Virus record (IMG/VR): IMGVR_UViG_3300013094_000069
Span: 1 to 52,263 of that record
Reading direction: 5' to 3' (one strand)
DNA: 52,263 bases
From: a virus
Shown in pieces: positions 6,968-49,227 of this stretch; positions within the stretch are counted from its first letter, which is position 1, and each line of letters starts with the position of its first letter. The position numbers were made by a program, and so were the translations under genes. The notes under the pieces were generated by a model, which saw only the letters and a program-made list of their open reading frames with translations, made no database searches and had not been told where the DNA came from.

Positions 6968-6970
6968 TAG

Positions 6971-6980: not shown

Positions 6981-6982
6981 AC

Positions 6983-7396: not shown

Positions 7397-7419
7397 TTAA
7401 CTAGCCATATTATTATCTA

Positions 7420-7429
7420 AATAAATACT
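7420..7429 (+). promoter_or_regulatory. Late-type promoter motif (AATAAATACT)
   Basis: AATAAATACT lies 18 bases before the gp6 ATG in the 50-base gap after gp25. It gives a short leader that contains an AGG before the start. It matches TATAAATA at 7 of 8 bases and carries the same CT extension as copies at 22018 and 52143. Confidence 0.6.
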
Positions 7430-7446
7430 TTATATAGGTAAAAATA

Positions 7447-31199: not shown

Positions 31200-31547
31200 A
31201 TGAGTGAACTTGAAAAACTTACAGCCGAAATTCGTCGGGCAACTGACTACCGAGTTAACAAAACTATTTTGCGAGAGAAGATCCAAACTGATCTTCACTT
31301 TCCCTATAACGGTGGATTGTTTAAAGCCACACAGGAATTAATTGCCTTTGTATATGCGTGGAGTGGCACCGAAGAGATTTGGCCCCAGGATCAAGGTGAC
31401 CCCATCTTCTTAGAAGATACATATGGCAATCCGATTCGCATAGATAATAGAAAAGAATTTTACCAACGAGCCTGCGAACAATATCAACAAGCAATGAATC
31501 AATGGCATCAACAACATGCAGAACTTAAAAAAATTAGAAAAGTCTAG
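31200..31547 (+). CDS. Unknown small protein, first gene of the accessory island
   Basis: This 115-residue, mostly helical, charged protein has no membrane segment or cysteine motif. It begins SELEKLTAEIRRATDYRVNK. The centre reads FLEDTYGNPIRIDNRKEFYQ and the end is a Gln/His-rich helix. I do not recognise the family. It is the first gene after the perfect sigma70 promoter, on a leader with no clear ribosome site. Its end overlaps the next gene by 32 bases. Being promoter-proximal, it should be the most strongly expressed gene of the island, but its function is open. Confidence 0.6.
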   Translation: MSELEKLTAEIRRATDYRVNKTILREKIQTDLHFPYNGGLFKATQELIAFVYAWSGTEEIWPQDQGDPIFLEDTYGNPIRIDNRKEFYQRACEQYQQAMNQWHQQHAELKKIRKV

Positions 31548-32343
31548 GGGTGTGGTTGTATTTGCTTTTAATTCTTCAACTGTTGATTATGTTCGTATAG
31601 CAGATCAAACCAGTAGATTAACTGCACATACACTGGGGCTACCTATAACACTTATCACCGATAGTGATGCCACTCCTAAATTTGCATACGATCATATTAT
31701 AAGGGTAGATACTCCTGCTGAGACTTTGAGATTAGACCAAAATTCAAAACAAATAACCTGGCGTAATTTTGGTAGGTACTTAGCATATGAACTTAGTCCA
31801 TATACCGAAACTATTCTACTAGACACAGACTATCTTGTATTTGATAGATCTTTATTGAATTTATTTAATACTGATTTTGATTATAAATTGATGCATAACA
31901 ATCGGTCCATTGATGGTATGTATACTTTCCCACTTATGGGAGAGACTAGTTTGCCCTTTGTTTGGGCAACCGTTGTGTTGTGTAGAAAAACCGAACGTAG
32001 TAAATTGTTTTTTAATTTAATTGGGCGAATACAGCGTAACTATGAATACTACAGGGCTTTGTATAATGTTCGTGAGCGTAATTATAGAAATGATTATGCT
32101 TTTGCTATTGCTAATACAATCATAAACGGCTATAATCCAAGTAGAGATCAAGGCATCCCGTGGACGATGCACACAGTAGATAAATCAATTGAACGAATAA
32201 TGTTAACTGACAATTTTCTTAGAATATACAATGCAGATGAAGCATTAGTTGTCCCCTACAGTAATCTACATGTTATGGATAAAACATATCTGCAGAGCAG
32301 AGATTTTGAACAAGTGGTGGAGGCCATCTGTGAGCCAACATAA
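31516..32343 (+). CDS. GT-A-like glycosyltransferase, tandem copy 1
   Basis: This 275-residue protein has the layout of a nucleotide-sugar-dependent GT-A enzyme. A Rossmann-like first strand (GVVVFAFNSSTVDYVRIADQ) is followed by LPITLITDSDA, and a metal-binding type DxD motif sits at 103-105 in ETILLDTDYLVFD. Conserved aromatic residues follow around VWATVVLCRKTERSKLFFNL. The donor and acceptor sugars cannot be told. It overlaps the previous gene by 32 bases and the next by 14. The next gene is a divergent paralogue with the same opening pattern (GFVTFAVNTAEVNYGELAYL). No secretion signal is present, so it acts in the cytoplasm. Confidence 0.55.
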   Translation: MQNLKKLEKSRGVVVFAFNSSTVDYVRIADQTSRLTAHTLGLPITLITDSDATPKFAYDHIIRVDTPAETLRLDQNSKQITWRNFGRYLAYELSPYTETILLDTDYLVFDRSLLNLFNTDFDYKLMHNNRSIDGMYTFPLMGETSLPFVWATVVLCRKTERSKLFFNLIGRIQRNYEYYRALYNVRERNYRNDYAFAIANTIINGYNPSRDQGIPWTMHTVDKSIERIMLTDNFLRIYNADEALVVPYSNLHVMDKTYLQSRDFEQVVEAICEPT

Positions 32344-33169
32344 AGAACAACAGGGTTTTGTGACCTTTGCCGTTAATACCGCCGAAGTCAACTACGGAGA
32401 ACTTGCATATCTACAATGCTTGAATGTCAAAGCTACGCAACAAAACAATCGCTATGCAGTTATTGTTGATGTTAATACGTACGAATCGTTTACAGAACAA
32501 CAACTAAACACATTTGATTATGTAATACAGATTGGTGTTGATAGAGACAATCCATTTAGTGCAGAGCCAACAGTTTGGCATCATACTCCATTTAAAGAAA
32601 CAATCAAATTGGAAAGTGACCTATTGTTTACTCGTAGTGTCGATCATTGGTGGACCGCGTTTAGATTAAAAAATGTTTGTTTGAGTACACATGCCAGGAC
32701 CTCTACTGGTGCCATGCTTGATAGGTTTATCAAGTACAGAGAATTATTCGAAGCCAATCAATTGCCTGACGTATACAACGGATTAATGTATTTTAGATAC
32801 ACACAAGAAGCACATGACTTTTTTCTAACTGCTAGAAACATATTTGAAAATTGGGATATTGTTAAAAAAGAATTAATACAATGTGATGTTGCACCTAGTA
32901 CAGACGTAGTCTACGCCATAGCTGCATTGATATTAGGCGAAGATCTGGTAACTATGCCAAGTATGGACTTTTTAAACTTTGTGCATATGAAATCAAGATT
33001 CAATGGCTGGAGCGATACATTAAGTTGGTTAGATACGGTAGTCAATGAAAGAGACGGTGATATTGTACGCATCAACAACTTGAACCAATATTATCCGGTA
33101 CACTACTACGATAAAAGTTATTGTACACAAGAACTAATAGAATATTATGAACGACGAGTTTTGGACTGA
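32330..33169 (+). CDS. GT-A-like glycosyltransferase, tandem copy 2
   Basis: This 279-residue paralogue of the 31516 gene shares the first strand (GFVTFAVNTAEVNY), and the DxD position here reads Glu-Ser-Asp in TIKLESDLLFTRS (95-97). The frame is open upstream to 32249, but the GTG at 32330 has a strong GGAGG site 8 bases before it (32317-32321). Everything upstream lies inside the previous gene and does not resemble this family, so I start at 32330. Changed residues at the metal site may mean a different donor or reduced activity. The end overlaps the next gene by 23 bases. Confidence 0.5.
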   Translation: MSQHKEQQGFVTFAVNTAEVNYGELAYLQCLNVKATQQNNRYAVIVDVNTYESFTEQQLNTFDYVIQIGVDRDNPFSAEPTVWHHTPFKETIKLESDLLFTRSVDHWWTAFRLKNVCLSTHARTSTGAMLDRFIKYRELFEANQLPDVYNGLMYFRYTQEAHDFFLTARNIFENWDIVKKELIQCDVAPSTDVVYAIAALILGEDLVTMPSMDFLNFVHMKSRFNGWSDTLSWLDTVVNERDGDIVRINNLNQYYPVHYYDKSYCTQELIEYYERRVLD

Positions 33170-33494
33170 ACTAGAAAAATTAATACAACCTGTACAACCT
33201 TTGACAATTGAGTATAGGTTGTATTATGATGAAAATGGCAACATAACTTCTTGTTCCATGAATGAACACAAAACTGTAGATAGTTATGTAGTAGTAACAA
33301 AAGAAATATATGAAAATTATTTCAAATATCAAATTGTAAACGGTGTACCTAAATTAATTAATCGAGATAGCTCTCGAGGACGACAACTAACACCCAGCAA
33401 CAATGGCTACCCAGTGGTAAAAGGACATGCTGGATTAATAATCGAAGACACAGAAACGTATCCAGAAATAGAATATTATGCAAGAAACAATTGA
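33147..33494 (+). CDS. Unknown small conserved-looking phage protein
   Basis: This 115-residue protein starts NDEFWTELEKLIQPVQPLTI and has a beta hairpin EYRLYYDENGNITSCSMNEH, then SYVVVTKEIYENYFKYQIVN. It ends with an acidic DTETYPEIEYY segment. The EYRLYYDENGN pattern is one I associate with small uncharacterised proteins of marine T4-like phages; no function is known to me. It overlaps genes on both sides (23 and 17 bases), so it belongs to the same translation unit as the GT-like proteins. No signal peptide, cysteine motif or membrane segment. Confidence 0.55.
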   Translation: MNDEFWTELEKLIQPVQPLTIEYRLYYDENGNITSCSMNEHKTVDSYVVVTKEIYENYFKYQIVNGVPKLINRDSSRGRQLTPSNNGYPVVKGHAGLIIEDTETYPEIEYYARNN

Positions 33495-34371
33495 CGTAGC
33501 AGATTTAGACTGCATATTTTTAACTTATGATGAACCTAAAAAAGAAGAATTTTGGATTAAAGTTTCCAACATGGTACCTTGGGCTAAACGTGTCGATGGA
33601 GTTAAGGGATCTGATGCTGCACACAAAGCAGCCGCAGATGCCAGTGACACTGATCGCTTTGTGCTTATTGATGGTGACAATCTGCCTGATGCTGATTTCT
33701 TTAACCTGCAGTTACATTTGGATTCTACCAATGTCAATAGCGTTTTTCGTTGGCGGGCTCGCAATAGCATCAATGGCTTGATGTACGGCAATGGTGGTAT
33801 GAGTTGCTGGACAAAGGAATTTGTCTACAACATGCGAACACACGAAGCGTCAGATGGATCAGATGATACCGCAGTAGAATTTTGTTTTGATCCTAACTAT
33901 TGGTCTATGCATGATTGTTACAGTACTACATATCCTGATGCAACTCCGTTTCAGGCCTGGAGAGCAGGATTTCGTGAAGGGGTTAAAATGTGTTTAGATC
34001 GCGGTACTAAACCTACATTAGAAGAATTTAACCGACGTATAGTAAATCGCAACTACGATAATTTATGTATTTGGCAGAGTGTCGGTGCCGACAATCCCAA
34101 TGGGTTCTGGGCTATGTATGGAGCACGGCTTGGCACTCATTTAACAATGTTGACCAATTGGGATTATCGCCAGGTACAAGACTTTGACGTATTAAATGGA
34201 ATGTGGAATACTTATAAGAATGCTGGGGAAGAAAATTGTATAGCACTAGGGGAGATTTTAAGAAAAAGATTAGATTTAAACATAGTAGATATGAATGCAG
34301 AAGAAAGTCGTTTCTTCAAGCATCATTATAAAAGTCAGTTTGCAAACAAAGGACCATTAGTACGTGAGTAA
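33478..34371 (+). CDS. GT-A-like glycosyltransferase with DGDN motif
   Basis: This 297-residue protein has FLTYDEPKKEEFWIKVSNMV, then a RVDGVKGSDAAHKAAADASD helix and a strand ending in FVLIDGDNLPDADFF. Asp65-Gly-Asp67 is a likely metal and nucleotide-sugar site. WRARNSINGLMYGNGGMSCW (about 92-111) matches NPVNGLEYGHQALVCY in the C-terminal domain of the gene at 50322, so the two share a domain. That other copy has lost the DGDN, which suggests this one is the active form. The start overlaps the previous gene by 17 bases, and the stop overlaps the first radical SAM gene by 8. Confidence 0.6.
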   Translation: MQETIDVADLDCIFLTYDEPKKEEFWIKVSNMVPWAKRVDGVKGSDAAHKAAADASDTDRFVLIDGDNLPDADFFNLQLHLDSTNVNSVFRWRARNSINGLMYGNGGMSCWTKEFVYNMRTHEASDGSDDTAVEFCFDPNYWSMHDCYSTTYPDATPFQAWRAGFREGVKMCLDRGTKPTLEEFNRRIVNRNYDNLCIWQSVGADNPNGFWAMYGARLGTHLTMLTNWDYRQVQDFDVLNGMWNTYKNAGEENCIALGEILRKRLDLNIVDMNAEESRFFKHHYKSQFANKGPLVRE

Positions 34372-35752
34372 ATCAGATTTCATGGCATCAGCTGAGTGGA
34401 TGCAGGCTAATTTAGGGCCTGCCCTCTGTTTGGCTAAATGGAAACAAGTTAGTCTACACTTACCTACTGGACTTAACAATAGCTGTTATCATCCGCCGTT
34501 GCATGAAATAGATGCAACTGCAATACAAACTAACCCTGGTGCATTGCACAATACCGCACACAAAAAGCAACAACGTGTAATGATGCTTCAACAGGAAAAG
34601 CCCGCAGAGTGCAGTTATTGTTGGAACATAGAAAAACACGATCAACTCAGTGACCGACATTATCGTTCGGGCGAGCCATGGGCTGCCGAAGAATATGATA
34701 CTATTATAAATAGTACAGGAGACGAAGATGATGTGGTTCCTAGTTACGTTGAAGTTAATTTTAACAATGCTTGTAATTTGTCATGTAGCTATTGCAGTCC
34801 ACAATTTAGCTCAACCTGGCAGTCTGAAATCGATCGCTTTGGTGGATATCCTACTAGTACTACTCACAATAGTCGCGAGCATTTTACAGGACGCAATCGT
34901 CCTATCCCTGTAAAAGATCACAATCCATATGTAGAAGCATTTTGGGAATGGTGGCCCACCTTGTATCCCAAATTAAAACATTTTCGCATGACCGGTGGTG
35001 AACCACTAATGGATCGGAATACCTACAAGGTATTTGATTATGTGTTGGCCATGCCCAATCCTGAATTGCATTTGAATGTAACCAGTAACTTTAGTGTAGA
35101 GCAAAATCTACTAGACAAGTATTTGAATTATGTCAAACAGTTGTGTTCTACACAAATAGAGCATTTTATGCAGTTTGTTAGTGTAGACTCAGGGATTCCC
35201 AGTCACGCTGAATATATTAGACACGGCTTAAACTTTAATCGTATGTATGGTAATGCTCAGAGATTCTTAGATGAAATACCACATCGTAATAGTCTAACGT
35301 TTATTATCACGATGAACAATTTATCAGTACTGGGATTGCAACGCCAATTGGAATGGATACTGACCATGCGCAAAAGATTCAGTACAACCTACCAACGTGT
35401 TTGGTTTGATACTCCGTTATTGCGCAAACCTGAATGGCAAAGTCTACAGATACTTCCGCCTGTGTATGTTGGTGTATTGGAACGTGTGGCAGACTGGATG
35501 GAGTTGAACTTGGAAAAGCCAGAAGATCCATTCCATGGATTCAAAGACTATGAAGTACAACGCCTACGTCGAGATATAGCGTGGATGAGAGAAGGTGCCT
35601 CATTGGATTCTGCGTACATTAACCTACAACGTGGTAATTTCTTTAGGTTCTTCAACGAACATGACCGTAGACGCAAAACCAACTTCTTATCAACATTTCC
35701 AGAAATGCGAGAGTTTTGGAAAGAGTGTGAGTATCATGCAAAAAATTCCTGA
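34364..35752 (+). CDS. Radical SAM protein 1 (HxxP subgroup, N-terminal extra cysteines)
   Basis: This 462-residue enzyme has the radical SAM motif CNLSCSYC (Cys137, 141, 144) that binds the catalytic 4Fe-4S cluster, and the SAM-contact GGEP at 211-214. Before the core is a second cysteine set: Cys22 in CLAKW, Cys41 in SCYHPPLH, and Cys83/Cys86 in CSYCW. Together these look like an auxiliary-cluster (SPASM/twitch-like) module placed N-terminally. It is closely related to the 36839 gene (SCHHPLPH, IKTNPKAIHNT versus IQTNPGALHNT). The start is a GTG overlapping the previous stop by 8 bases (GTGAGTAA). The substrate is unknown. Confidence 0.85.
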   Translation: MSKSDFMASAEWMQANLGPALCLAKWKQVSLHLPTGLNNSCYHPPLHEIDATAIQTNPGALHNTAHKKQQRVMMLQQEKPAECSYCWNIEKHDQLSDRHYRSGEPWAAEEYDTIINSTGDEDDVVPSYVEVNFNNACNLSCSYCSPQFSSTWQSEIDRFGGYPTSTTHNSREHFTGRNRPIPVKDHNPYVEAFWEWWPTLYPKLKHFRMTGGEPLMDRNTYKVFDYVLAMPNPELHLNVTSNFSVEQNLLDKYLNYVKQLCSTQIEHFMQFVSVDSGIPSHAEYIRHGLNFNRMYGNAQRFLDEIPHRNSLTFIITMNNLSVLGLQRQLEWILTMRKRFSTTYQRVWFDTPLLRKPEWQSLQILPPVYVGVLERVADWMELNLEKPEDPFHGFKDYEVQRLRRDIAWMREGASLDSAYINLQRGNFFRFFNEHDRRRKTNFLSTFPEMREFWKECEYHAKNS

Positions 35753-36851
35753 TACTTTTTGTTCAGGCAAATGGGAAGAACTTTGCTTTAACTTAAACTA
35801 CAATTATGTCTACGGCTGTTGTAGTGCTAAACCTGTGAAGTTTGTTAAAGACTATAACGAAGTATTGGATCAGCAGAAAACAAATTTATTAAATGGTGTT
35901 AAAGATTCTAGTTGCAATTATTGTTGGAGTGTAGAAGCCGGAGGCAAGCCTAGTAGACGTAATGAATACACTAATGCCTTTGATGGTGACTTAACCCCTT
36001 ATATAAACAATACTGCACCGGTTAAGTTACTAGAACTCAATCTTGGTAATGAATGTAATTTTCAATGTGTGTACTGCAATCCCAAGTACAGTAGTTTATG
36101 GGAAGCAGACGTAAGAAAGCAACCATATAAAGTTTTCACAGATAGATTCAATTACGGTCTACTAGACAAAACCGACGAATCGGTTAGTGATGCTAATATA
36201 GCCGTACTCGAGCAAATTGGGTTTGTAGAAGAAGTACGAATTATAGGTGGCGAGCCACTGATGAACAAGAACCTGTGGCCATTATTAGAAAATGTCAACA
36301 CCGGAACTTTGCATATTACAACCAATTTGTCCTGTAAAACCGAAACATTAGACCGATTATTTGCTACCAAATTTGAACGTATTAGATTACAAATAAGTTT
36401 GGATGCGCCTAAAGCAATATCTGAATTTGCACGATTCGGAACAGACTTTGATCAAATGATGCAGACATTAAACTATGCATTGACATCTGCACCTGAACAT
36501 GTTACAATAACTATTGCAAGTACTTTTTCTAGTTTAACCATTAGGGGTATAGAAGAATTTGCAGAAATGGTACGCAAATGGCAAAAAGTAAGACCTGCAT
36601 TAATATGGACATTGAACTATTGCAGGACTCCAAACATACAAAGTTTTTATACATTGCCTGGCCAGTATCGTGCAGATATAGCAAAAGTACTAGAGCAAGT
36701 TAAGACAATGCCCAATATAGAACGTGTAGAAATTGTAGAGTCAGCGTTAGAGAACTATAAATTTAGTCCTACTATGCACAAAGAATTAAAACATTTTTTT
36801 CAGCAATTTGCTGAACGTAAGAATATAACAATACCAATATGCCTAGACTAG
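35736..36851 (+). CDS. Radical SAM protein 2
   Basis: This 371-residue enzyme has CNFQCVYC at 107-114 and GGEP at 171-174. Its N-terminal cysteines are Cys9 (CSGKW), Cys28-Cys29 and Cys60/Cys63 (CNYCW), the same pattern as its neighbours. The frame is open upstream to 35595, but those 47 codons lie in the coding end of the previous gene and do not match the family, while the ATG at 35736 puts CSGKW at the usual place. It overlaps the previous gene by 17 bases and the next by 13. It is the shortest of the subgroup with a Lys-Trp after the first cysteine. Product unknown. Confidence 0.85.
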   Translation: MQKIPDTFCSGKWEELCFNLNYNYVYGCCSAKPVKFVKDYNEVLDQQKTNLLNGVKDSSCNYCWSVEAGGKPSRRNEYTNAFDGDLTPYINNTAPVKLLELNLGNECNFQCVYCNPKYSSLWEADVRKQPYKVFTDRFNYGLLDKTDESVSDANIAVLEQIGFVEEVRIIGGEPLMNKNLWPLLENVNTGTLHITTNLSCKTETLDRLFATKFERIRLQISLDAPKAISEFARFGTDFDQMMQTLNYALTSAPEHVTITIASTFSSLTIRGIEEFAEMVRKWQKVRPALIWTLNYCRTPNIQSFYTLPGQYRADIAKVLEQVKTMPNIERVEIVESALENYKFSPTMHKELKHFFQQFAERKNITIPICLD

Positions 36852-38218
36852 CAAACGAAACTGACTTAGAATACAAACGTAGAGTAATAGACATCAAGTC
36901 TGAATCATTCTGCGGAGCCAAATGGTACAATGCTACCATATGGTTAGGTAGCGGTCAAACTACTAGTTGCCACCATCCCCTGCCTCATGCAATCGATGTT
37001 GAAGAAATCAAAACAAATCCTAAAGCTATTCACAACACGCAGCGGAAAAAGATGGAGCGTGAGCAGATGCAGAAGGGCGAACGTCCCAGTGGATGTGAGT
37101 ACTGTTGGAAAATTGAAGATATGTATAAAGATCCAAAATATGCTGGTGCAGATGTGCCAGTGCCTATTAGTGATCGTGTATACAAAACTGTAATTTATAG
37201 TGATGAAGACTTAGCCTATGCACATCGAACACCTGCATCTAAAGACGTAGACTTGCAGACTTTGGAAATTGCATTTGACCGTACTTGTCAATTTGCTTGT
37301 AGTTATTGTAATCCTGCATTTAGCAGTACATGGGTTAAAGATATCAAACAAAACGGGCCCTATGTTAATCTTGTCAGCGATGGGCGTAATCACTTTACGC
37401 ATCCTCATGATAGCAGTCAACTTTATAAGTACGGACAAGCAAATCCTTATGTGGAAGCATTTCATAAATGGTGGGAATCAGACTTACATAGAACATTAAA
37501 AGAACTACGCATCACCGGCGGAGAGCCTCTAATGAGTGCCGACACTTGGAAGTTAATTGATTGGTTTAAAACTAACCAAGGCAAAAGTTCTACACGTCTT
37601 GCTATTAATAGTAACTTGGGCACTGATGTAGACGTAGATCGGTTACTGTTGGCTATTGACGGTGTTGAAGTAGACTTGTACACTAGCAATGAAAGTTTTG
37701 GATTACAAGCTGAATACATCCGTGATGGTCTTGTTTGGCAAGACTGGATTAACAATGTTGAGAAGTTATTGGAAAGTAAAAAGTTTCGTGGACTGCATGT
37801 GATGTGTACTATTAATGCATTATGCTTGGATTCGCTACCAAACTTTTTAGAAATGATAATGACATGGAAACGCAAATTTGGTAAAGACTCAATTAACTTC
37901 TCACTAAATATATTACGCTTTCCAAGTTTTCAATCACTGACTGTACTATCAGAAAATATACGATTATCATACTATAATAAACTGCATGATTTTTATGACA
38001 GTTATCGGCATACTTCTGAAATGCACGAGTTTGAATGGAATCAATTAACAAGATTGCTTAGTTATATACATGAAATAGAACAAGCACACACTGAAGCAAT
38101 GTCGCAGAGTATTCTGCAACGTGATTTTAAAAACTTTTATATGCAATACGACGAACGCCGAGGCAAAGACTTCTGTGCTACGTTCCCAGCATTAGCAGAT
38201 TGGTATAATAAAATATAA
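36839..38218 (+). CDS. Radical SAM protein 3 (paralogue of protein 1)
   Basis: This 459-residue enzyme has CQFACSYC at 150-157 and GGEP at 227-230. Its N-terminal cysteines are Cys25 (CGAKW), Cys44 (SCHHPLPH) and Cys86/Cys89 (CEYCW). It is nearly collinear with the protein at 34364, including the AIHNT and NPYVEAFHKWW blocks (NPYVEAFWEWW there), so the two are duplicates separated by protein 2. The asparagine usual after the first core cysteine is replaced by Gln here, which is tolerated. The start overlaps the previous gene by 13 bases, and the stop overlaps the next start (TAATG). Confidence 0.85.
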   Translation: MPRLANETDLEYKRRVIDIKSESFCGAKWYNATIWLGSGQTTSCHHPLPHAIDVEEIKTNPKAIHNTQRKKMEREQMQKGERPSGCEYCWKIEDMYKDPKYAGADVPVPISDRVYKTVIYSDEDLAYAHRTPASKDVDLQTLEIAFDRTCQFACSYCNPAFSSTWVKDIKQNGPYVNLVSDGRNHFTHPHDSSQLYKYGQANPYVEAFHKWWESDLHRTLKELRITGGEPLMSADTWKLIDWFKTNQGKSSTRLAINSNLGTDVDVDRLLLAIDGVEVDLYTSNESFGLQAEYIRDGLVWQDWINNVEKLLESKKFRGLHVMCTINALCLDSLPNFLEMIMTWKRKFGKDSINFSLNILRFPSFQSLTVLSENIRLSYYNKLHDFYDSYRHTSEMHEFEWNQLTRLLSYIHEIEQAHTEAMSQSILQRDFKNFYMQYDERRGKDFCATFPALADWYNKI

Positions 38219-39534
38219 TGGCCGATAACATAAACGATTACTACAAAGACTACAACTACGGTGCACGTAAACCTATCTATATCGAAGAGGATAAGTTGCG
38301 CCCAGATCAGCTTGATCGATTAATTAAAAGCAATGAGTTTTGTATTATTCCTTGGATACACATGCATGCTTTCCCTGATGGTCGTGCATATCCCTGCTGT
38401 TTAAGTGAGCCGCAACATCCAATTGGTAATCTTAAAACACAAATAATGCGTGATGTTTGGAATGATGAGCCATTGCGACAGATGCGAGTAAACATGCTAA
38501 ACAATCAACCTTGCAAAGAGTGTACTAAATGTTATGAGCAAGAACAATCAAAGTTGTTTAGTATGCGTGAAAGTGCAAATAAAAACTTTGGGCATCATAT
38601 TGGCTTAGTAGATAATACTCAAGAGGATGGAACATACGATGACTTTAAAATCCGTTATTATGATATACGGTTCAGCAACTTATGTAATTTTGCTTGCCGC
38701 ACTTGCGGAAGCATCTTTAGCTCAAACTGGTATGCTGACGAAAAGAAAGCTGGGTGGGATCCACAACATCCACAGGTAATGTATGCCGGTAAAGACAAAG
38801 GAGATATGTGGGAACAGATGCAAGAACATATCCCGCACCTGGAGCAAATATATTGGGCTGGTGGCGAGCCATTGATCATGGAAGAACATTGGAAAGTTCT
38901 TGATGAACTAGTCAAGCGTGAAATGTTCCATGTTAGATTAATTTATAATACAAACTTCAGTGAAATGAAATTCAAAGGACGTGATGTATTTGAAATGTGG
39001 AAACTGTTTGATTGTGTTAGCATTGGTGCTAGCCTTGATGGCAGTTATGCCCGTGGCGAATACATACGTAAAGGACAGGATTGGCAACAAACAGTTGAGA
39101 ATCGTCAACGTATGATAGAGATTTGTCCTAATGTAGACTTTTATGTTAGCAGTACTGTAAGCATGATGAATGTGTTACATATCACTGACTTTCATCGTGA
39201 ATGGGTTGAGTTAGGACTTGTACGCCCAATGGATTGGAATATTAATATTCTACAACATCCGTTTAGGTATCGTGTAGATGTATTGCCCAGCAACTTAAAA
39301 CAACAAGCAAAAGCCAAGCTAGAAGAACACATCGCATGGTTACGCCCTCAAGACTCGCTAACACGAGCAACCAGTGGCTACGAAGGCGTTATTAACTTTA
39401 TGATGGCAAATGACAATACACATCAATTGGGCGATTTCTTTAAGAATAACAATCTGATTGATGGTGTACGTAACGAAGACTTCTTTAGCGTATTTCCTGA
39501 ACTAGTGGAGTTAAAACAATATGCCACTGCCTAG
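38218..39534 (+). CDS. Radical SAM protein 4 (SPASM/twitch module at N-terminus)
   Basis: This 438-residue enzyme shows the domain order most clearly. Residues 42-105 look like a SPASM-type auxiliary cluster domain: CIIPWIHMHAFPDGRAYPCC (42-61), then IGNLKTQIMRDVWND, then CKECTKC (99-105). The radical SAM core follows with CNFACRTC (156-163) and GGEP (215-218). SPASM domains normally follow the core, so the order is reversed here. RefSeq uses the name twitch domain-containing radical SAM protein for proteins I believe are of this type. It starts at a one-base TAATG overlap and ends overlapping the next gene by 14 bases. Confidence 0.87.
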   Translation: MADNINDYYKDYNYGARKPIYIEEDKLRPDQLDRLIKSNEFCIIPWIHMHAFPDGRAYPCCLSEPQHPIGNLKTQIMRDVWNDEPLRQMRVNMLNNQPCKECTKCYEQEQSKLFSMRESANKNFGHHIGLVDNTQEDGTYDDFKIRYYDIRFSNLCNFACRTCGSIFSSNWYADEKKAGWDPQHPQVMYAGKDKGDMWEQMQEHIPHLEQIYWAGGEPLIMEEHWKVLDELVKREMFHVRLIYNTNFSEMKFKGRDVFEMWKLFDCVSIGASLDGSYARGEYIRKGQDWQQTVENRQRMIEICPNVDFYVSSTVSMMNVLHITDFHREWVELGLVRPMDWNINILQHPFRYRVDVLPSNLKQQAKAKLEEHIAWLRPQDSLTRATSGYEGVINFMMANDNTHQLGDFFKNNNLIDGVRNEDFFSVFPELVELKQYATA

Positions 39535-40735
39535 TACCATATGTATGTTACCATGGGTAAGTATTGAAACTAGTCCATTGGGTACTACTAGGCCCTGTTG
39601 CTTGGCCAATGATGAAATTGTTGATGAGTCAGGACATAAGTATGATCTAAGCAAAACAGATTTATCGACAGTATATCACAGCAAGTATATGCAGGATCTG
39701 CGTAGACAATTTCGTGCTGGCGAAAAACCTGCTACTTGCAATCGTTGTTGGGAAGAAGAATCGGCTGGACGTACTAGCAAACGAATGAATAGCCAAATAC
39801 GATTAAAAGAATTATACAAGAATGTAGATTGGTATAATGATAACCCGGATCAACTTTGGTTTGTTGATTTAAAACTAGGTAATATTTGCAACTTGAAATG
39901 TCGTATATGCGGGTCTTGGTCTAGTAGTAAATGGGCCGAAGAAGAAATGAACTACATGCCCAACGACTTTGATAAGAAAAAACATCTTGCATATACTTGG
40001 TTAAAGCAAGGCGCATGGCCACGCAAGACTGAAACGTTTTGGGATAACATGCGAGCATTATTGCCTAACATACGTTACCTTGAGTTTACTGGCGGTGAGC
40101 CGTGGTTAATACAAGAACATTGGGATTTGTTACAGTACGCAGTTCAAACTGGTGATTCAAAACACATTGATATTCATTACAATACCAATGCCACACAAAA
40201 TCCAGAAGATCTAGATGCTGATGTATGGAAAGATTTTGGCCGAGTTGACATTGCTTTTAGCATAGACAATGTGGGTGCAAGATTTGAATATGAACGATAT
40301 GGTGCTGATTGGGAGTTGGCCAATAAGATTATAGATTATGTTCATTACTCGCAACATGAAAACCCCAACATCACCACACAGTTGTGTTTTACCATCAACA
40401 TACAAAATGTCTACTACTTGGATGAATTATTGGCCTGGGCTGATACTAAAGGGTTTGGTAGTGTATACTTCAACATGTTACAGAGTCCAGAACGTATGAG
40501 TATACAACACATGACTCCAACTGCACAGGAGTTGGTCCTGAATAAATTAAAAACTACATTTTGGACTACAAATCAGTACCAACAAGAAATTGACAACGTA
40601 ATTCGTTTTATTGAAAATGGTACAGGCAGTGACGGTGTAGAGTTTTTAAGTAGAATGAAACAAACTGATGCGTATCGTCAACAAAACTTTGCTGATACAC
40701 ATCCAGAAATAGCACGGGCAATGGGATATGAGTAA
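39521..40735 (+). CDS. Radical SAM protein 5 (SPASM/twitch module at N-terminus)
   Basis: This 404-residue enzyme has the N-terminal module CMLPWVSIETSPLGTTRPCC (8-27) and CNRCWEEE (73-80). The core has CNLKCRIC (123-130) and GGEP (191-194), followed by IHYNTNATQ and IAFSIDNVGARFEYERYGAD, the usual barrel strands. The protein is in the same PW...CC subgroup as the genes at 38218 and 42585. A GGAG lies about 9 bases before the ATG. The start overlaps the previous gene by 14 bases, and the stop overlaps the next start in an ATGAGTAA junction. Confidence 0.87.
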   Translation: MPLPSTICMLPWVSIETSPLGTTRPCCLANDEIVDESGHKYDLSKTDLSTVYHSKYMQDLRRQFRAGEKPATCNRCWEEESAGRTSKRMNSQIRLKELYKNVDWYNDNPDQLWFVDLKLGNICNLKCRICGSWSSSKWAEEEMNYMPNDFDKKKHLAYTWLKQGAWPRKTETFWDNMRALLPNIRYLEFTGGEPWLIQEHWDLLQYAVQTGDSKHIDIHYNTNATQNPEDLDADVWKDFGRVDIAFSIDNVGARFEYERYGADWELANKIIDYVHYSQHENPNITTQLCFTINIQNVYYLDELLAWADTKGFGSVYFNMLQSPERMSIQHMTPTAQELVLNKLKTTFWTTNQYQQEIDNVIRFIENGTGSDGVEFLSRMKQTDAYRQQNFADTHPEIARAMGYE

Positions 40736-41807
40736 ACCTGTTTTTAATACAACTTGGATACAACCTAAAAAGCCAGATAACTTTGATATAAAGGATCATG
40801 AGTTACTATTTAAACAAAGAAATTATTCATTGCCACTGGTTAAAACACATATAACCAATACATGCCGAGCACCGTTTAATAATTTAGCTGTTGATAATAA
40901 AGGCCGTGTATTCAATTGCAAATGTTCCGGGCATGTTCCCTTTGTTGCTGGGTTAGCGACAGATTTTAATACATTCGAAGAAGTTTTTAATTCGCCAATG
41001 GCATTAAAAAATCAAGAATCTGTTACTAAAAAAGAATTTGAATATTGTGCAACTGATGTATGTGGGATTGAAGCAGGTGATATTATTGCCAAGCCCGGCT
41101 ATATATATCTAGCACTTGAAATTGATCACAGTTGTAATTTTTCTTGCCCTAGTTGTAGGGAACGTATGATTTTTATAAATGATTCCGAATTACTTGATAA
41201 AATAGCAGTTTACACAGATAGAATTTCCCAATGGATTAAAACAACTGATAAACTTGTGATTATTGAATTCTCTGGTGGTGAACCATTTGCAAGTTTAGTT
41301 TATTCAAAATTAATATCAGAATGGTTAACATATAAAAATGTAAACATGAATATAAGGACCAATGGATCGTTAATAAAACAAAATTTATCTAAATTAGTTG
41401 ATTTAGATAATATGATAGAAAATATAACATTGTCTATTAGTATAGATGCAGCATCCAAAGAAGTATATGAACAAGTACGCCGTGGCGGAAAATGGGATTC
41501 TTTATTACAAAATTTAGAATACGTAAAACAGTTAACTATAAAATATCCATCATTAAAAGTTGCGGCATCATTTGTAGTACAAAAAGATAACATCAATGAC
41601 ATGATACCATTTGTAAAATTTTGTAAGGATTTTAATATAACCCCGAACTTTACACCATTGGAAGATTGGGGTACATGGCATAATTATCATGATCATTGTA
41701 TACACTTACCATCCTCGCCTTATTATCGGCAATTTTTAGATATAATTAACGAATTGAAACAAGTTTGTTCACAATCTAATATGTTAAGGTTGTCGGCATT
41801 TATATGA
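40728..41807 (+). CDS. Radical SAM protein 6 (divergent, AT-rich, paired with partner gene)
   Basis: This 359-residue enzyme has CNFSCPSC at 136-143 and SGGEP at 182-186, then a standard MoaA/NifB-like barrel (MNIRTNGSLIKQNL, LSISIDAASKEVYEQVRRGG). The N-terminal extra cysteines are more divergent: Cys46 (CRAPF), Cys64/Cys66 (CKC) and Cys107/Cys112. Its barrel is more typical of free-living bacterial radical SAM proteins than its neighbours, and its DNA is markedly AT-richer (25 percent GC at 41161-41220 by hand count). The stop overlaps the next gene by 4 bases (ATGA), which pairs it with the unknown protein at 41804. Confidence 0.87.
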   Translation: MSKPVFNTTWIQPKKPDNFDIKDHELLFKQRNYSLPLVKTHITNTCRAPFNNLAVDNKGRVFNCKCSGHVPFVAGLATDFNTFEEVFNSPMALKNQESVTKKEFEYCATDVCGIEAGDIIAKPGYIYLALEIDHSCNFSCPSCRERMIFINDSELLDKIAVYTDRISQWIKTTDKLVIIEFSGGEPFASLVYSKLISEWLTYKNVNMNIRTNGSLIKQNLSKLVDLDNMIENITLSISIDAASKEVYEQVRRGGKWDSLLQNLEYVKQLTIKYPSLKVAASFVVQKDNINDMIPFVKFCKDFNITPNFTPLEDWGTWHNYHDHCIHLPSSPYYRQFLDIINELKQVCSQSNMLRLSAFI

Positions 41808-42592
41808 TAACAATTTGTTTTAATAATTTAATAAAATTAAATATTGACATAGAATCATCTATGCTTGGAAGAAATTATGTAAATTTAATTCGTAAAAATT
41901 ACAATAAATCATTGCCGGTGTATCGAGACAAAATAAAGTATGATAGCATATACTTGTTAAAATTAGCTCAACAAGCTAAAGATGCGTTTGGTTGGGATTG
42001 GGCATTACCTGAATATGATTTATCAGTAATACCTGCGTTACACAGAGATCTTGAAAAGTTGTTAAGTAAAACAGGATTTAGTAATGTTCCTGCAAAATAT
42101 GATAATTTACTACACGAATTGCATTATTGTTTACACATTGTACAACACCCAGACAAAGTTCACACACGCATAGGAAATTTACAAATAGAATGGTTTAATG
42201 ATTCAGGTTTTCCTCTTCCATATGATTTTGAATTTAAAACAGAATTAAAGTTTGGAGATTGTTTATTACAAAATCCATATGTTGGTCACGGTCCTGTACA
42301 AATTGATAATGAAAATGATTGGGACAGCATCGACCAAACGTGCAGATTTCATGATTTTGTTAAACCTGGTATAGTTATATACACTGGACCAAATTACACA
42401 ATAGATAAGCAAAGCATATTAAATAAATTTAATCAACATAATCCTAAGTTTGTAAATAAACACACTGAGCAAACTATTTTGCATTACACAGGAGTTCCAG
42501 TTATTGGTCAAGTAAGAAACATTAATGATCTTATTAATATTGTTGAATATCCTGTTGCGATTGAATTAACCGACATAACATTTGATGAATAA
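41804..42592 (+). CDS. Unknown radical SAM partner protein, copy A
   Basis: This 262-residue protein lies in an ATGA overlap directly after radical SAM protein 6. It has a helical first half (YVNLIRKNYNKSLPVYRDKI, ALHRDLEKLL, DNLLHELHYCLHIVQHP). The second half is beta-rich, around EWFNDSGFPLPYDFEFKTEL, KFGDCLLQNPYVGHGPVQID, FHDFVKPGIVIYTGPNY and a final HYTGVPVIGQVRN. The layout follows that of the longer protein at 43894 (shared LHELH/MNELH and ...FGxxYL/FGDCLL blocks), so both probably belong to one uncharacterised family, each placed after a radical SAM gene. It may be the substrate, a chaperone or a subunit. The DNA is AT-rich like the preceding gene. Confidence 0.6.
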   Translation: MITICFNNLIKLNIDIESSMLGRNYVNLIRKNYNKSLPVYRDKIKYDSIYLLKLAQQAKDAFGWDWALPEYDLSVIPALHRDLEKLLSKTGFSNVPAKYDNLLHELHYCLHIVQHPDKVHTRIGNLQIEWFNDSGFPLPYDFEFKTELKFGDCLLQNPYVGHGPVQIDNENDWDSIDQTCRFHDFVKPGIVIYTGPNYTIDKQSILNKFNQHNPKFVNKHTEQTILHYTGVPVIGQVRNINDLINIVEYPVAIELTDITFDE

Positions 42593-43901
42593 ACCTGACA
42601 CACTATGTATGGCTCCTTGGGTACATACGTATCTGAGCCCACAAACTGAACGCAGAATGTGCTGTGCGTCTCGAGAGCCTGCACAAAATTTTCAACAGTA
42701 TATCGACACCAGCGCCGGTTCTGGCAAGTATATACCTATCACTCTGGACGAACATTGGAACGGTGATCACATGCGCTCCGTTAGAAAACGCATGATGGCC
42801 GGTGAAACCCTGCCCGAGTGCGAAGTATGCAATGATAAACTGTTAAATACCAGCGTTTACCGTAGTTATTTTAATCAGTTGTTTGGACATAAGTATGATA
42901 GTATAGCAGAAACTACAGATGAAACAGGCTACACAACAATGCGACCTGTAAGTTGGGACTATCGGTTCAGCAATCTCTGTAACTTCAAGTGTCGTATGTG
43001 TGGAGACATGTTGAGTAGTGCCTGGGAGACAGAAGAGCGTCAACATAAAATGATTGATTACACAAATCCAAAGAACAATTGGATGCAGCCCGAAGTCAAG
43101 CAACAAATTGAACAGTTTCAAGACACCCAAGTAGAGCAGGAGTTTGCCGAAGCTGTGGAACAGCATCACATCGAGGAAGTTTACTGGGTAGGCGGCGAAC
43201 CGTTGATGTACGAGCAACATTGGCACTACATGCAACGTATCATTGAACTGGGAGATGGACCGAATGTTTACGCTAGATATAATACTAATCTTTCCCGTAT
43301 TACTTATCGTGGTATTAATTTGTATGCTGATATCCTTGGTAAGCTACGGGATTGGCAAATCTGCGCAAGCCTCGACGGAACAGGCAGAATTGGAGAATAC
43401 ATTAGAACAGGTCTCGTCTACAATGAATGGCTTGAGAACTTCACTGAAGGAATTGCGCATTCGACTCATCATAGACAGATGCGAATCGACTTCACCCTTA
43501 CCTTGCCGGGAATGTTTGAAGTTGAACGGATTGGAAGATTGTCCTCAACCCTCGCCGTACAAGTTCTGGCGAAAGTGATTTTTAGTTTTAGTCCGGACAT
43601 AGTTATGTCGCCGTTAGCACTACCTAGAGAATTATTACATTCCTGGGTAGATGAAATATTGGATGACCACCCAGGGGGTATTAACCATGTACCTGATAAC
43701 AGTCCCTTACGAGACATACTTGTCCAGCTAAAAACTAGACCAACATTTGCAGAACAATGGCCTGACCAATATAAATCTGGATTAATTCGTGGTAAAAAAC
43801 GTATATTAGAGCTTGAACGAATTCGTCGAGATGTGTATACTATGAGAGATATACTCGCGGAACGTCCGCAAGTTTTAGAATGGTGGGATTCTATTGAATA
43901 A
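42585..43901 (+). CDS. Radical SAM protein 7 (SPASM/twitch module at N-terminus)
   Basis: This 438-residue enzyme has the N-terminal module CMAPWVHTYLSPQTERRMCC (8-27) and CEVC (79-82). The core has CNFKCRMC (132-139), GGEP (203-206) and the SLDGTGRIGEYIRTG strand. A TTG lies one codon upstream; I use the ATG at 42585, which forms an ATGAATAA junction with the previous stop. The first 900 bases are clearly richer in GC than the two genes before it (52-53 percent in the 60-base lines at 42661 and 43141 versus 25 percent at 41161), which suggests separate acquisition. The stop overlaps the next gene by 8 bases. Confidence 0.87.
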   Translation: MNKPDTLCMAPWVHTYLSPQTERRMCCASREPAQNFQQYIDTSAGSGKYIPITLDEHWNGDHMRSVRKRMMAGETLPECEVCNDKLLNTSVYRSYFNQLFGHKYDSIAETTDETGYTTMRPVSWDYRFSNLCNFKCRMCGDMLSSAWETEERQHKMIDYTNPKNNWMQPEVKQQIEQFQDTQVEQEFAEAVEQHHIEEVYWVGGEPLMYEQHWHYMQRIIELGDGPNVYARYNTNLSRITYRGINLYADILGKLRDWQICASLDGTGRIGEYIRTGLVYNEWLENFTEGIAHSTHHRQMRIDFTLTLPGMFEVERIGRLSSTLAVQVLAKVIFSFSPDIVMSPLALPRELLHSWVDEILDDHPGGINHVPDNSPLRDILVQLKTRPTFAEQWPDQYKSGLIRGKKRILELERIRRDVYTMRDILAERPQVLEWWDSIE

Positions 43902-44955
43902 AGTTCAAGTTGTATTACGAAATCCGTTAAACAAGTCTAGTCAAACGGATTATACCATCACGGTTGAAGATTCGGAATTAGGCAAATTGTGGCATACAGC
44001 ACTTGTAGATCTACTTGCTGGTGCAAAACATTTAGAAAAGAACTTTTGCTTTTTAGGATTTCCTGATAGTGTAAGAGATTTAAATTTTATATGCAAAGAA
44101 TTAAAATGGGCAACTGATCAGATAAATGGGTTTTTTGAACCAGAAGAGTATCGCATTAGTGAAAAATTTACTCCAGAAACTCTACGACCTGATGGATTAA
44201 ATCCCAATCAAGACTTAATGAATGAATTACACAATCATTTTGAACATCTACAAGGTACAGTAGAAAATTTAAGTGAATGGTATAAACGTGCAGACCACGA
44301 AACTAAGTTTGCTATTAGACAATTAAATAATTTATGTCATGAGGCCGAAAGTCTCATGTTGAGCCAACGTAAAAAAGTACAGGATCCAGTTTGGATTAGA
44401 CCTAGCCAAATTACTACATTCTTAAATGCAGAACGTTTTGAATTTCCACTAGAGTTGCGTAGAACATTTGATAAATCAAGATATGATAGAAAGTTTGGTC
44501 ATGTATATCTACATTGGACACAAATAGGTAAAACCATTTATGAAGTGTTCTGCGACGAAAACGGAGCAGACATAGATCAAACAGTCTGCGATGCAATAAC
44601 TCATTTAAAATACTATAGCGGCGAGTTTGATATTGAGTGGGGTCGAGATACAGTTTATTACGGCAAGACGCCATGGCATCGAGAAAGAATGGATAAGTTT
44701 GGTGATTGGTTATATAAAAATAATTTTGATCCCAACGATCCTGAATTTAATTATGGATACCACGAAATAGGGCAAGTAGAAAATTTAGGAACACCAGAAG
44801 AAACTTGGGTAATGTTAAGCGAACATTCGGATATATATAAAATTTCAGCAGGTGGTAAAACAGCAGTATTTGATTATTCGTGGGCGGATAATCATTATGA
44901 TAAACAACAATTAGCAAGATTGAAACGCGGATATGATTATAGTAGCAGGGGGTGA
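43894..44955 (+). CDS. Unknown radical SAM partner protein, copy B
   Basis: This 353-residue protein starts with TTG in a TTGAATAA junction with radical SAM protein 7. The N-terminus reads NKVQVVLRNPLNKSSQTDYT. The helical region includes LMNELHNHFEHLQGTVENLS and AIRQLNNLCHEAESLML. The C-terminal half contains FEFPLELRRTFDKSRYDRKF, GHVYLHWTQIGKTIYEVFCD, a GEFDIEWGRDT strand and an FGDWLYKNNFDPNDPEFNYG block. It is a longer relative of the 41804 protein. No catalytic motif, signal peptide or membrane segment is visible. The recurrence of this family right after a radical SAM gene argues for a joint function. The end overlaps the SGNH gene by 23 bases. Confidence 0.6.
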   Translation: MNKVQVVLRNPLNKSSQTDYTITVEDSELGKLWHTALVDLLAGAKHLEKNFCFLGFPDSVRDLNFICKELKWATDQINGFFEPEEYRISEKFTPETLRPDGLNPNQDLMNELHNHFEHLQGTVENLSEWYKRADHETKFAIRQLNNLCHEAESLMLSQRKKVQDPVWIRPSQITTFLNAERFEFPLELRRTFDKSRYDRKFGHVYLHWTQIGKTIYEVFCDENGADIDQTVCDAITHLKYYSGEFDIEWGRDTVYYGKTPWHRERMDKFGDWLYKNNFDPNDPEFNYGYHEIGQVENLGTPEETWVMLSEHSDIYKISAGGKTAVFDYSWADNHYDKQQLARLKRGYDYSSRG

Positions 44956-45757
44956 TAGTTTTATACACGGTAGCGAACTAAAAGATCAAAAACCGACTAT
45001 TTTTAGTAAGTTCACTATTCCAGCATTGTTGGCAAAGAGTGTATCGGCTGATTATGTATGTGTGGCCGAACCGGGCAATGCTAATAACGCAATAGCACGT
45101 CAGGTAATGAATGCATGTGAGCAATATAAAGGACAGTCGCTGTTTGTATTTGTAATGTGGTCATTTACTCACAGATATGAATTTAGATTTAATTATGATA
45201 CTGGACGCAGAACATCGCCTTGGTATAGTTTAAATTTGTGGGATATAGTAGACAACGTTGCAAGTTTAAAAAAACATTTTCATACATTTGATCCAGTGGT
45301 ATTTGATGATCATGTAAACAATAAAAAAATTTTAAATAACAGCGGACTCACTGAGTTTGTGAAAACTTTTTACAAACATGTTGGCAATAGTGAGTTTTAT
45401 GAAAATTATACAAGCTACAAAGAAATACTTTTCCTGCAACAATATTTAAAATTAAATAATATTCCGTATATGTTTACCTCAGCAGATTTAGATTTTCAAA
45501 GTAGTTTGAATTATCAACGACATAAAAATGATGTAAACATGTATACACTTTATAATCAAATTGATTGGGGCAATTGGTTTAGCTTTGCTCCTGGAGTCGG
45601 GAACAATCAAACAGAAATGCCTAGGGGATTTTATCAATGGGCAGTAGAAAGCAATTATCCATTGGGTACTACTCATCCGTTGGAGCAAGCACACGCAGAT
45701 GCAGCAAATTTAATGCAAGGAAAATTTAATGAATTGGTTAAAAAATCTATACAATAG
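44933..45757 (+). CDS. SGNH/GDSL-family hydrolase 1
   Basis: This 274-residue protein has the block I serine motif GGDSFIHGSEL (Ser9) at the very N-terminus, an Asn-rich block (EPGNANNAIARQVM) corresponding to the Gly/Asn oxyanion blocks, and a C-terminal HPLEQAH (248-254). The usual Asp-x-x-His pair is Glu251-x-x-His254, a conservative change that may alter activity. Members typically remove acyl groups from sugars or other esters. No signal peptide is seen, so the target is inside the cell or on a nascent virion. It overlaps the previous gene by 23 bases and the microprotein by 29. Confidence 0.7.
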   Translation: MIIVAGGDSFIHGSELKDQKPTIFSKFTIPALLAKSVSADYVCVAEPGNANNAIARQVMNACEQYKGQSLFVFVMWSFTHRYEFRFNYDTGRRTSPWYSLNLWDIVDNVASLKKHFHTFDPVVFDDHVNNKKILNNSGLTEFVKTFYKHVGNSEFYENYTSYKEILFLQQYLKLNNIPYMFTSADLDFQSSLNYQRHKNDVNMYTLYNQIDWGNWFSFAPGVGNNQTEMPRGFYQWAVESNYPLGTTHPLEQAHADAANLMQGKFNELVKKSIQ

Positions 45758-45830
45758 AATTCTATTGGAAATACGTTATCGTAAAAAGTTAAAAGAACTA
45801 CGTAAAAGAGATCCCTTTATTTACAAATGA
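45729..45830 (+). CDS. 33-residue basic microprotein
   Basis: This tiny gene starts at an ATG with AAGGAA six bases upstream, overlaps the SGNH 1 gene by 29 bases and ends in an ATGA overlap with SGNH 2. It therefore fills what looks like a 69-base gap exactly. The product begins MNWLKNLYNRILLEIRY and ends RKKLKELRKRDPFIYK: an amphipathic, strongly basic helix with a defined RDPFIYK end. I associate that ending with short conserved peptides in marine T4-like phages. It has no cysteine or signal peptide. It may bind nucleic acid, membrane or a neighbouring protein; the function is unknown. Confidence 0.8.
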   Translation: MNWLKNLYNRILLEIRYRKKLKELRKRDPFIYK

Positions 45831-46489
45831 TTAAAAACATACTAACAATCGGCGACAGTTTTACTTACGGTGAAGAACTTAAGGACCGCTATCAAGCATG
45901 GCCCTATAGACTTGGCGATATGCTTGGTGCCGGGGCAGTTAACCAAGGATTGCCTGCTGCCAGCAATGACAAAATACTACGTCTAACAATAGAATCGATT
46001 GTAACAGAACCTGATGTTGATCTAACAGTAATTGCATGGACCAATTTGGGACGCAGTGAACATGCTGACGAATTTGGGTACTACGATGTTTGGCCTGGAT
46101 ATCAAGGAAATTTATTTAAATTAGATAACAGTGAGTGGAGAAATGATTTAGTATCATATATAAGTCAGTATCATAATCCACAGGCTATGTATAAAAAATT
46201 TATACAACAAGTATTGATGTTACAGGCATTTTTAGAAAAGCGTGGACGTCGATATTTAATGCTAAACACATTACAAAACGAATACTATAAAAAAAGAATT
46301 TTTCCCGACGATCAACAATTTTTTAGTATGATTGATCAAGATAAATTTATGGGATTCAATAAAAGTGGAATGGCAGAGTGGGTAGGGGACAGTCCAAAAG
46401 GACCAGGCGGTCACTTCTTGGATCAAGGGCACAGAATCGTAGCAGAAAAAATATATGACCATATTAGGCATCTCGGCTGGATTTCATGA
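45827..46489 (+). CDS. SGNH/GDSL-family hydrolase 2
   Basis: This 220-residue protein has block I IGDSFTYGEEL (Ser11), GLPAASNDKILRLTIE as the Gly/Asn blocks, WTNLGRSEH in the middle and a canonical DQGHRIVAEKI at the end with Asp199 and His202. All catalytic blocks are in place, so it is probably an active esterase or deacetylase. It shares the GDSF-GEEL opening with SGNH 1 and 3. It begins in an ATGA overlap with the microprotein and overlaps the carbamoyltransferase by 35 bases. No signal peptide, so it is probably cytoplasmic. Confidence 0.8.
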   Translation: MIKNILTIGDSFTYGEELKDRYQAWPYRLGDMLGAGAVNQGLPAASNDKILRLTIESIVTEPDVDLTVIAWTNLGRSEHADEFGYYDVWPGYQGNLFKLDNSEWRNDLVSYISQYHNPQAMYKKFIQQVLMLQAFLEKRGRRYLMLNTLQNEYYKKRIFPDDQQFFSMIDQDKFMGFNKSGMAEWVGDSPKGPGGHFLDQGHRIVAEKIYDHIRHLGWIS

Positions 46490-48823: not shown

Positions 48824-49227
48824 AACGTATATTAATAATGGGATTGCCTGGATCTGGAAAAACTACCTTAGCCAAAGCACTAGTAGAAAAAATAGATGCC
48901 ACATGGTTTAATGCAGATGAAGTGCGTAAACAGTTTAATGATTGGGATTTTAGTCCTGAAGGTAGGCTAAGGCAAGCAGCACGCATGCGTGAATTAGCAG
49001 ATAACAGTAATACACGATTTGTTATTGCTGACTTTGTTTGCCCATTGCCTGAAATGCGCGAAGTATTTTCAGCTGATTTCACTGTATGGATTGACACTAT
49101 ACCCGAAGGTAGATTTGCAGACACAAACAAAATGTTTGTATCACCTGACTATTATGATATTAAAGTACCAACACAAGATGCAGATCATTGGAGCGATATT
49201 ATCGCAACGCATCTGTTAAATTTGTAG
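48820..49227 (+). CDS. Adenylylsulfate kinase-like P-loop kinase
   Basis: This 135-residue protein begins with a Walker A motif GLPGSGKTT (8-16), followed by FNADEVRKQFNDWDFSPEGR (30-49) and a RQAARMRELAD helix. These correspond to the APS-binding part of CysC kinases. VIADFVCPLPEMREVF and DTIPEGRFADTNKMF follow. APS kinase makes PAPS, the sulfate donor, but related short phage kinases may phosphorylate other small molecules. It is shorter than bacterial CysC (about 200 aa), and no sulfotransferase is visible in this window. Its 3' end overlaps by 29 bases the opposite-strand gene at 49199-50323. Confidence 0.7.
   Translation: MKRILIMGLPGSGKTTLAKALVEKIDATWFNADEVRKQFNDWDFSPEGRLRQAARMRELADNSNTRFVIADFVCPLPEMREVFSADFTVWIDTIPEGRFADTNKMFVSPDYYDIKVPTQDADHWSDIIATHLLNL

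Follow-up and report, generated by a model that had tools for sequence, protein, structure and literature searches.

Comparison of sequences and gene order indicates that five radical S-adenosylmethionine (SAM) enzymes encoded in one array of a large uncultured bacterial virus form a functional set that is maintained among its relatives. The virus is represented by IMG/VR record IMGVR_UViG_3300013094_000069, the 52,263 nucleotides of which (hereafter, the window) contain seven radical SAM (rSAM) genes, A to G, within a run of overlapping genes (Table 1). A preliminary description of the window had distinguished at least three types among them. The presence of several types holds, and the count is now revised: A, C, D, E and G represent five conserved orthologous types, and B and F are two types of sporadic occurrence. 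The chance is judged to be about even that the array serves a phage-encoded, multi-enzyme pathway of radical SAM glycan tailoring, coupled to a glycosylation module.

Searching IMG/VR with protein D returned 44 relatives, and a broader profile scan returned at least 593. DNA was read for 121 viral loci, window included, and in 90 of these the array is uncut by a contig end. As the loci were picked by similarity to D, this protein is present by construction; A, C, E and G are not. All five core types occur in 85 of the 90 uncut loci, 73 of which keep the exact order A-C-D-E-G and six the order A-C-D-G-E, with the identity of D spanning 46–87% across loci that have the five-type array. In a maximum-likelihood tree, every core type forms its own clade of 41–46 sequences on a long stem. 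The core types are thus old, and the array did not arise by recent duplication. In particular, A and C, previously taken for a local and recent duplication, share only approximately 30% identity and are ancient paralogues. The ratio of nonsynonymous to synonymous substitution rates (dN/dS) in close pairs of core genes lies mostly between 0.01 and 0.15, reflecting purifying selection; higher values of 0.19 (D) and 0.40 (E) both come from a pair in which synonymous change is nearly absent. The preliminary description had held that the set is maintained, and that CxxxCxxC motifs lost among relatives or dN/dS near 1 would speak against a functional system. Its view is supported by the co-occurrence, fixed order and low dN/dS of the core genes, and the cluster cysteines are lost in none of approximately 220 core proteins (the A, C, D, E and G orthologues).

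Around this core, gene content varies. Orthologues of B number three in the close set (loci L008 and L023 included), with B-type matches also in a few distant loci, and F likewise has three orthologues in the close set; B, F and several others can be inserted between core genes but are optional. One clade encodes D and E in a single open reading frame (ORF) of 837–852 residues, a gene fusion suggesting that the two enzymes may act together. The fusion is present in loci L026, L027, L028–L032, L035, L037, L039, L043, L045, L047 and L050, and its ORF starts near 9968–10013 in most of them and at 5048 or 5614 in others. Compact loci (L193, L205, L175 and L049) retain the series GT31.5-g32.2-g33.5-A-C-D-E-G-P2-X50. 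The distance matrices of A, C and G correlate with one another, and that of A also correlates with those of the carbamoyltransferase CT (0.80) and of g33.5 (0.73). Median identity is 62–69% for A, C and G, compared with 33% for the adjacent tail protein S317, a difference that suits a constant chemical substrate. Four loci deposited in metagenome-assembled genomes (MAGs) of Rickettsiales, Pelagibacter, Verrucomicrobia and Flavobacterium (L062–L065) carry the phage module or array, and probably represent phage contigs that were assigned to bacterial genomes by mistake.

The family assignment of the seven proteins is consistent across profiles. Their ORFs have no internal stops and contain one CxxxCxxC and one GGEP motif apiece, and PF04055 (Radical_SAM) matches all seven (E 5.5e-14 to 4.1e-7), five of them above the Pfam cut-off, in agreement with the preliminary description of these genes as intact rSAM genes. 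The overlap of every gene with its neighbor was also correctly described: consecutive rSAM genes overlap by 1–17 nucleotides, and P1 overlaps F by 4 nucleotides and G by 8. Six proteins (A, B, C, D, E and G; 191–403 bits) exceed the 170-bit cut-off of NF033640, the NCBIfam model for "twitch domain-containing radical SAM protein" (N_Twi_rSAM), with matches covering nearly the full model. The remaining protein, F, reaches 81 bits over residues 124–311 and is an rSAM protein with an N-terminal C-x-C variant. The SPASM family PF13186 is matched above its cut-off in D (E 7e-12, residues 42–105) and in E. In contrast, the viperin model NF038283 (pVip) gives 15–40 bits where it matches, against a cut-off of 180, which places the proteins outside that family. 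Among the matches listed (the best 25 of 43 families), F scores 34 bits with the heme b synthase model TIGR04545 (AhbD), the cut-off of which is 500, and this model is not among the matches of the other six rSAM proteins.

The core proteins have seven invariant cysteines, three of the SAM cluster and four in the N-terminal part. In A these ligands are C137, C141 and C144, and C22, C41, C83 and C86, invariant across 44 orthologues; the cluster cysteines of G are invariant across 41. In a profile comparison, the twitch region of BtrN, an aminocyclitol dehydrogenase (4m7t), is matched by the N-terminal portion of the rSAM profile (E 1.6e-6). Given the invariant cysteines, the BtrN match and the SPASM match in D and E, each core enzyme is predicted to carry probably two [4Fe-4S] clusters, one cleaving SAM and one auxiliary. 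Each type also has its own extra cysteine (C303 in D, C289 in E, C261 in G, C455 in A and C329 in C). Those of E and G are invariant. As a lead, these extra cysteines are candidate hydrogen donors by analogy with radical epimerases, though C303 of D, as read from the alignment, appears to sit before a barrel strand, not in the active site.

The array is associated with glycosyltransferase genes. To its left lie GT31.5, g32.2 and g33.5, and to its right P2, SGNH/DUF6071 genes, the carbamoyltransferase, a kinase, GT49 and X50. GT31.5 is found upstream of the array in nearly all viral loci, and its D103-x-D105 motif is invariant across 20 homologues. The position of g32.2 is also conserved among viral loci, and its profile matches glycogenin-1 (E 2.5e-5, profile positions 6–111). 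Though highly conserved (49–75% identity in 20 loci), g33.5 gives no significant match in the PDB. GT49 has no confident family match in profile searches, and X50 has no match in the PDB; paralogues of GT49 recur within the array of relatives, where glycosyltransferase genes come and go between core rSAM genes. In two further loci, L103 and L116, GT31.5, g32.2 and g33.5 (with X50 as well in L103) adjoin a single D-like rSAM gene. The glycosyltransferase part of the module is thus not tied to the presence of all five enzymes.

Table 1. The rSAM array of the window and its neighboring genes (positions in the window).
Feature	Position	Strand	Description
rSAM A	34364..35752	+	Core type; NF033640 302 bits
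rSAM B	35736..36851	+	Optional extra; NF033640 191 bits; placed in tree
rSAM C	36839..38218	+	Core type; NF033640 279 bits
rSAM D	38218..39534	+	Core type; NF033640 403 bits; N-terminal PF13186 SPASM match
rSAM E	39521..40735	+	Core type, fused to D in one clade; NF033640 338 bits
rSAM F	40728..41807	+	Divergent CKC type, optional extra; PF04055 45.6 bits, NF033640 81 bits (below cut-off)
P1	41804..42592	+	Partner protein adjoining F or G in several loci; no family match
rSAM G	42585..43901	+	Core type; NF033640 283 bits; 41 orthologues
P2	43894..44955	+	After G in most loci; predicted cyclophilin-like barrel with helical insertion (structure only)
GT31.5	31516..32343	+	GT-A type, GT8-like; PF01501 E 0.01 (weak)
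g32.2	32357..33169	+	GT8/glycogenin-like; ORF opens at 32249, likely start near 32357
g33.1	33147..33494	+	Small gene, varies among relatives
g33.5	33478..34371	+	Putative GT-A glycosyltransferase, IDGDN motif; inferred from sequence without family match
SG1	44933..45757	+	SGNH/DUF6071-like; weak match
SG2	45827..46489	+	DUF6071/SGNH-hydrolase-like; PF19547 E 1.4e-14
CT	46455..47960	+	NodU/Nol-type carbamoyltransferase; PF02543, PF16861; phrog_1601 E 1e-89
SG3	47957..48823	+	SGNH/GDSL-like, variable; PF13472 E 2e-5
KIN	48820..49227	+	Small P-loop kinase; PF13671, PF01583; phrog_10255
GT49	49199..50323	-	Conserved opposite-strand gene; putative glycosyltransferase (inferred)
X50	50322..52154	+	Conserved right-hand boundary gene; putative glycosyltransferase (inferred)

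Among GenBank phage records, tblastn searches with D, A and G found relatives in Vibrio phages only, and the search with D found no rSAM relatives in the cultured phages related through the baseplate (PA5oct and the CBB group). At 161.6–178.9 kb, the cultured Vibrio phage K566 (OZ196521) has five distant N_Twi-like rSAM genes, among which lie two genes of the GT8 type and possibly one of the GT4 type. That rSAM genes are paired with GT8 genes independently in this phage is, together with the synteny of the viral loci, the best evidence for a link to glycans. Beside one of the K566 rSAM genes lies a pair of genes for proteins of 90 and approximately 330 residues, which recurs in Vibrio phage nt-1. 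Phages K566 and K567 resemble the window in having five NF033640 matches (133–202 bits, two above the cut-off). However, identity is approximately 22–25%, the gene order is different, and P2 was not found at the threshold used.

A bacterial counterpart is found in the Bacteriovoracaceae MAG UBA6144, in which eight N_Twi radical SAM genes span positions 6046–18042 of locus L068. All five types are represented (34–49% identity for the best member per type), as in the window, though with duplicates and in the order C-G-E-D-E-A-C followed by an A gene on the opposite strand. The contig is chromosomal, as the L21-L27-obg gene group adjoins the array, and a small secreted, Sel1-like, cysteine-containing protein is encoded between E and A. 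A-type genes were found in 90 of 369 Bdellovibrionota genomes. No A-type relatives were found in 398 sampled Pseudomonadota genomes at E ≤ 1e-60, an empty result that alone shows little, although the query was the one that had returned the 90 Bdellovibrionota genomes. A large expansion of the family in Bdellovibrionota is suggested; in three of these genomes (G248, G249 and G225), the A-type profile gives 33–39 first-look candidates each. The 87 neighbor proteins at bacterial loci include three carbamoyltransferases, two GDSL proteins and one DegT sugar aminotransferase. Bacterial neighborhoods were considered as a guide to the substrate and set aside, since the contexts are mixed and the carbamoyltransferase/SGNH signal is weak.

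The partner P2 can be described by structure prediction. Its AlphaFold2 (AF2) model has a predicted local distance difference test score (pLDDT) of 85, and each of the 50 rows in the VIA-align listing is a cyclophilin or a cyclophilin-like chain (Z 7.2–8.4, approximately 140 residues at 3.4 Å). Foldseek found no match of the model in the PDB at E ≤ 0.001. As the comparison of the P2 profile with a cyclophilin profile was also empty, P2 is called cyclophilin-like only with reserve, on the strength of the model. No relatives were found among annotated phages by tblastn. In BFVD, ten phage proteins resemble P2, one of them in Agrobacterium phage Atu_ph07, though a profile search of the Atu_ph07 record did not find this protein. 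The BFVD entry A0A6J5T9P3, a phage protein of 768 residues, aligns with the model of P2 at TM 0.77 (normalized by query length), and is of a size that would be compatible with P2 being fused to a radical SAM partner.

That five enzymes are kept together in a fixed order implies that their reactions belong together, and glycosyltransferases, a carbamoyltransferase and SGNH proteins are the usual set for building and decorating glycans. A multi-step radical pathway or several linked substrates, as proposed in the preliminary description, is the natural reading of five co-occurring, ordered types; the glycan as substrate, the individual reactions and the final acceptor are what we infer beyond this. 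In the pathway envisaged, GT31.5, g32.2 and probably g33.5, GT49 and X50 would build or attach a sugar chain, the residues of which would be reworked by radical chemistry before or after attachment. The obligate N-terminal-twitch enzymes A, C, D, E and G may catalyze several C-H activation steps on the sugar or its precursor, for example dehydrogenation, epimerisation, deoxygenation, or C-C or C-X bond formation. Also in favor of such a pathway are the correlated distances of A with CT and g33.5, the match to the twitch region of BtrN, the sugar-acting enzymes among the structural neighbors of D, and the carbamoyltransferases, GDSL proteins and sugar aminotransferase near bacterial family members. 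The carbamoyltransferase and SGNH proteins would add or trim carbamoyl and acyl groups, and the optional rSAM and glycosyltransferase genes between core genes could vary the product, probably a modified glycan on the phage tail fibres or the host surface. It is suggested more tentatively, with the balance leaning slightly the other way, that the five obligately co-occurring twitch enzymes act in sequence to give a new radical-modified glycan (or glycoprotein), a previously undescribed system common to T4-like jumbo-type phages and Bdellovibrionota.

Several observations weigh against glycan tailoring. The Bacteriovoracaceae cluster has the five types without adjacent glycosyltransferases, most bacterial family members lie in varied contexts, and three of the glycosyltransferases (g33.5, GT49 and X50) are assigned by inference only. 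No member of the family has been characterized, so no reaction can be assigned. The best structural neighbors of the D model (Z 8–9) include the sugar-acting BlsE and DesII and, about equally similar, the peptide-acting SkfB, SuiB and anSME. A cyclophilin-like P2 would also suit a protein substrate. It is accordingly conceivable, though rather unlikely, that the five enzymes modify a phage structural protein, installing crosslinks, D-residues or other changes to backbone or side chains, with a tail fibre or the 317-residue protein just upstream as the target and P2 or P1 presenting the substrate. SPASM/twitch rSAM enzymes commonly act on peptides, and tail-fibre genes immediately precede the array in nearly all loci; the resemblance of the P2 model to cyclophilins and the Bacteriovoracaceae array count on the same side. 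However, divergence is far greater in the adjacent tail protein than in A, C or G, the distant K566 members are interleaved with GT8 genes, and the fold match of P2 is without sequence support. There is also no room for a dedicated precursor peptide. A ribosomally synthesized and post-translationally modified peptide (RiPP) precursor inside the array was considered and rejected, as intergenic room is absent from the window run and no gap of 60 nucleotides or more occurs between A and G in 77 of the 90 uncut loci. A protein substrate encoded away from the array is possible.

The variability between core genes, where extra rSAM genes (B, F and others) and glycosyltransferases come and go, is also what would be expected of a hypervariable host-recognition island, in which individually useful surface-modifying cassettes were acquired independently and share no pathway. 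Pelagimyophage host-recognition regions, which differ by rSAM cassettes (PMC7029224), offer a precedent. Such an island is nevertheless improbable here, given the recurrence of five specific types, mostly in one exact order, the fusion of D and E in one clade and the correlated distances of A, C and G. More doubtful still is an auxiliary metabolic pathway for a cofactor, iron–sulfur (Fe-S) clusters or heme, or a role in tRNA, nucleotide or viperin-like antiviral chemistry. A survey of Baltic Sea viruses listed 261 viral "ahbD" radical SAM genes of unclear function (PMC9301287), an A-type Fe-S carrier gene is present in 7 of 15 large records from relatives of the window phage, and viperin_w_prok weakly matches some members. 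Yet the viperin and heme b synthase matches fall far under the curated cut-offs, and the module is without heme or nucleotide genes.

Comparison with known systems sets the fixed module apart. Six of the seven array proteins fit NF033640, with its N-terminal auxiliary-cluster cysteines, but this model names a subfamily without a function, is silent on a fixed five-type array and leaves F under its cut-off. The ocean phage TARA_ERS488813_N000010 is, like the window phage, large, T4-like, marine and rich in rSAM genes, 12 of which were counted in a list of Fe-S genes in 2017 (PMC5332604). It is known here by that count, and gene order, orthology or a module are not described in that paper. The pelagimyophage host recognition cluster, reported in 2020, likewise has rSAM cassettes and glycosyltransferases beside tail-fibre genes, but these cassettes are described as hypervariable additions, unlike the constant five-enzyme core found here (PMC7029224). 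The characterized enzymes BtrN, BlsE and DesII (sugar or cyclitol) and SkfB, SuiB and EpeE (peptide) share the radical SAM core, several with auxiliary clusters. At approximately 6–18% identity, however, no reaction can be transferred from them, and the matched twitch region of BtrN is C-terminal (residues 184–258) where that of the array enzymes is N-terminal. The preliminary statement that no described phage system needs so many radical SAM genes was therefore too strong, since phages with multiple rSAM genes were already reported, though without a system or function. The fixed five-enzyme module appears to be new: no description of the five-type array, its GT8 synteny or its Bdellovibrionota counterpart was found in the open-access literature searched.

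The remainder of the window identifies its carrier as a large, T4-like, jumbo-type, uncultured bacterial virus. It encodes a late sigma factor on the minus strand, gp25-, gp53- and gp6-like baseplate wedge proteins, a hub protein and tail fibres, and the gp6-like protein shares 34–36% identity with those of jumbo T4-like phages (PA5oct, CBB and Salicola phage SCTP-2). An unusually long structural protein of 3,820 residues is encoded in the baseplate/tail region (10557–22019). The overlapping plus-strand genes that include the array extend from approximately 31.5 to 49.2 kb, downstream of the tail-fibre genes. The T4-type late promoter TATAAATA was considered as their control element, but with 3 matches observed and 8.8 expected, there is no support for late expression from it.

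Radical SAM chemistry is within the reach of few other enzymes, and the constant presence of five different ones must bring a virus some specific benefit. With its fixed set of five types, the array offers a defined series of reactions for reconstitution, a counterpart in bacteria and, in the cultured phage K566, a related cluster of rSAM and glycosyltransferase genes. What marine phages gain from radical SAM genes thereby becomes a directly testable question.

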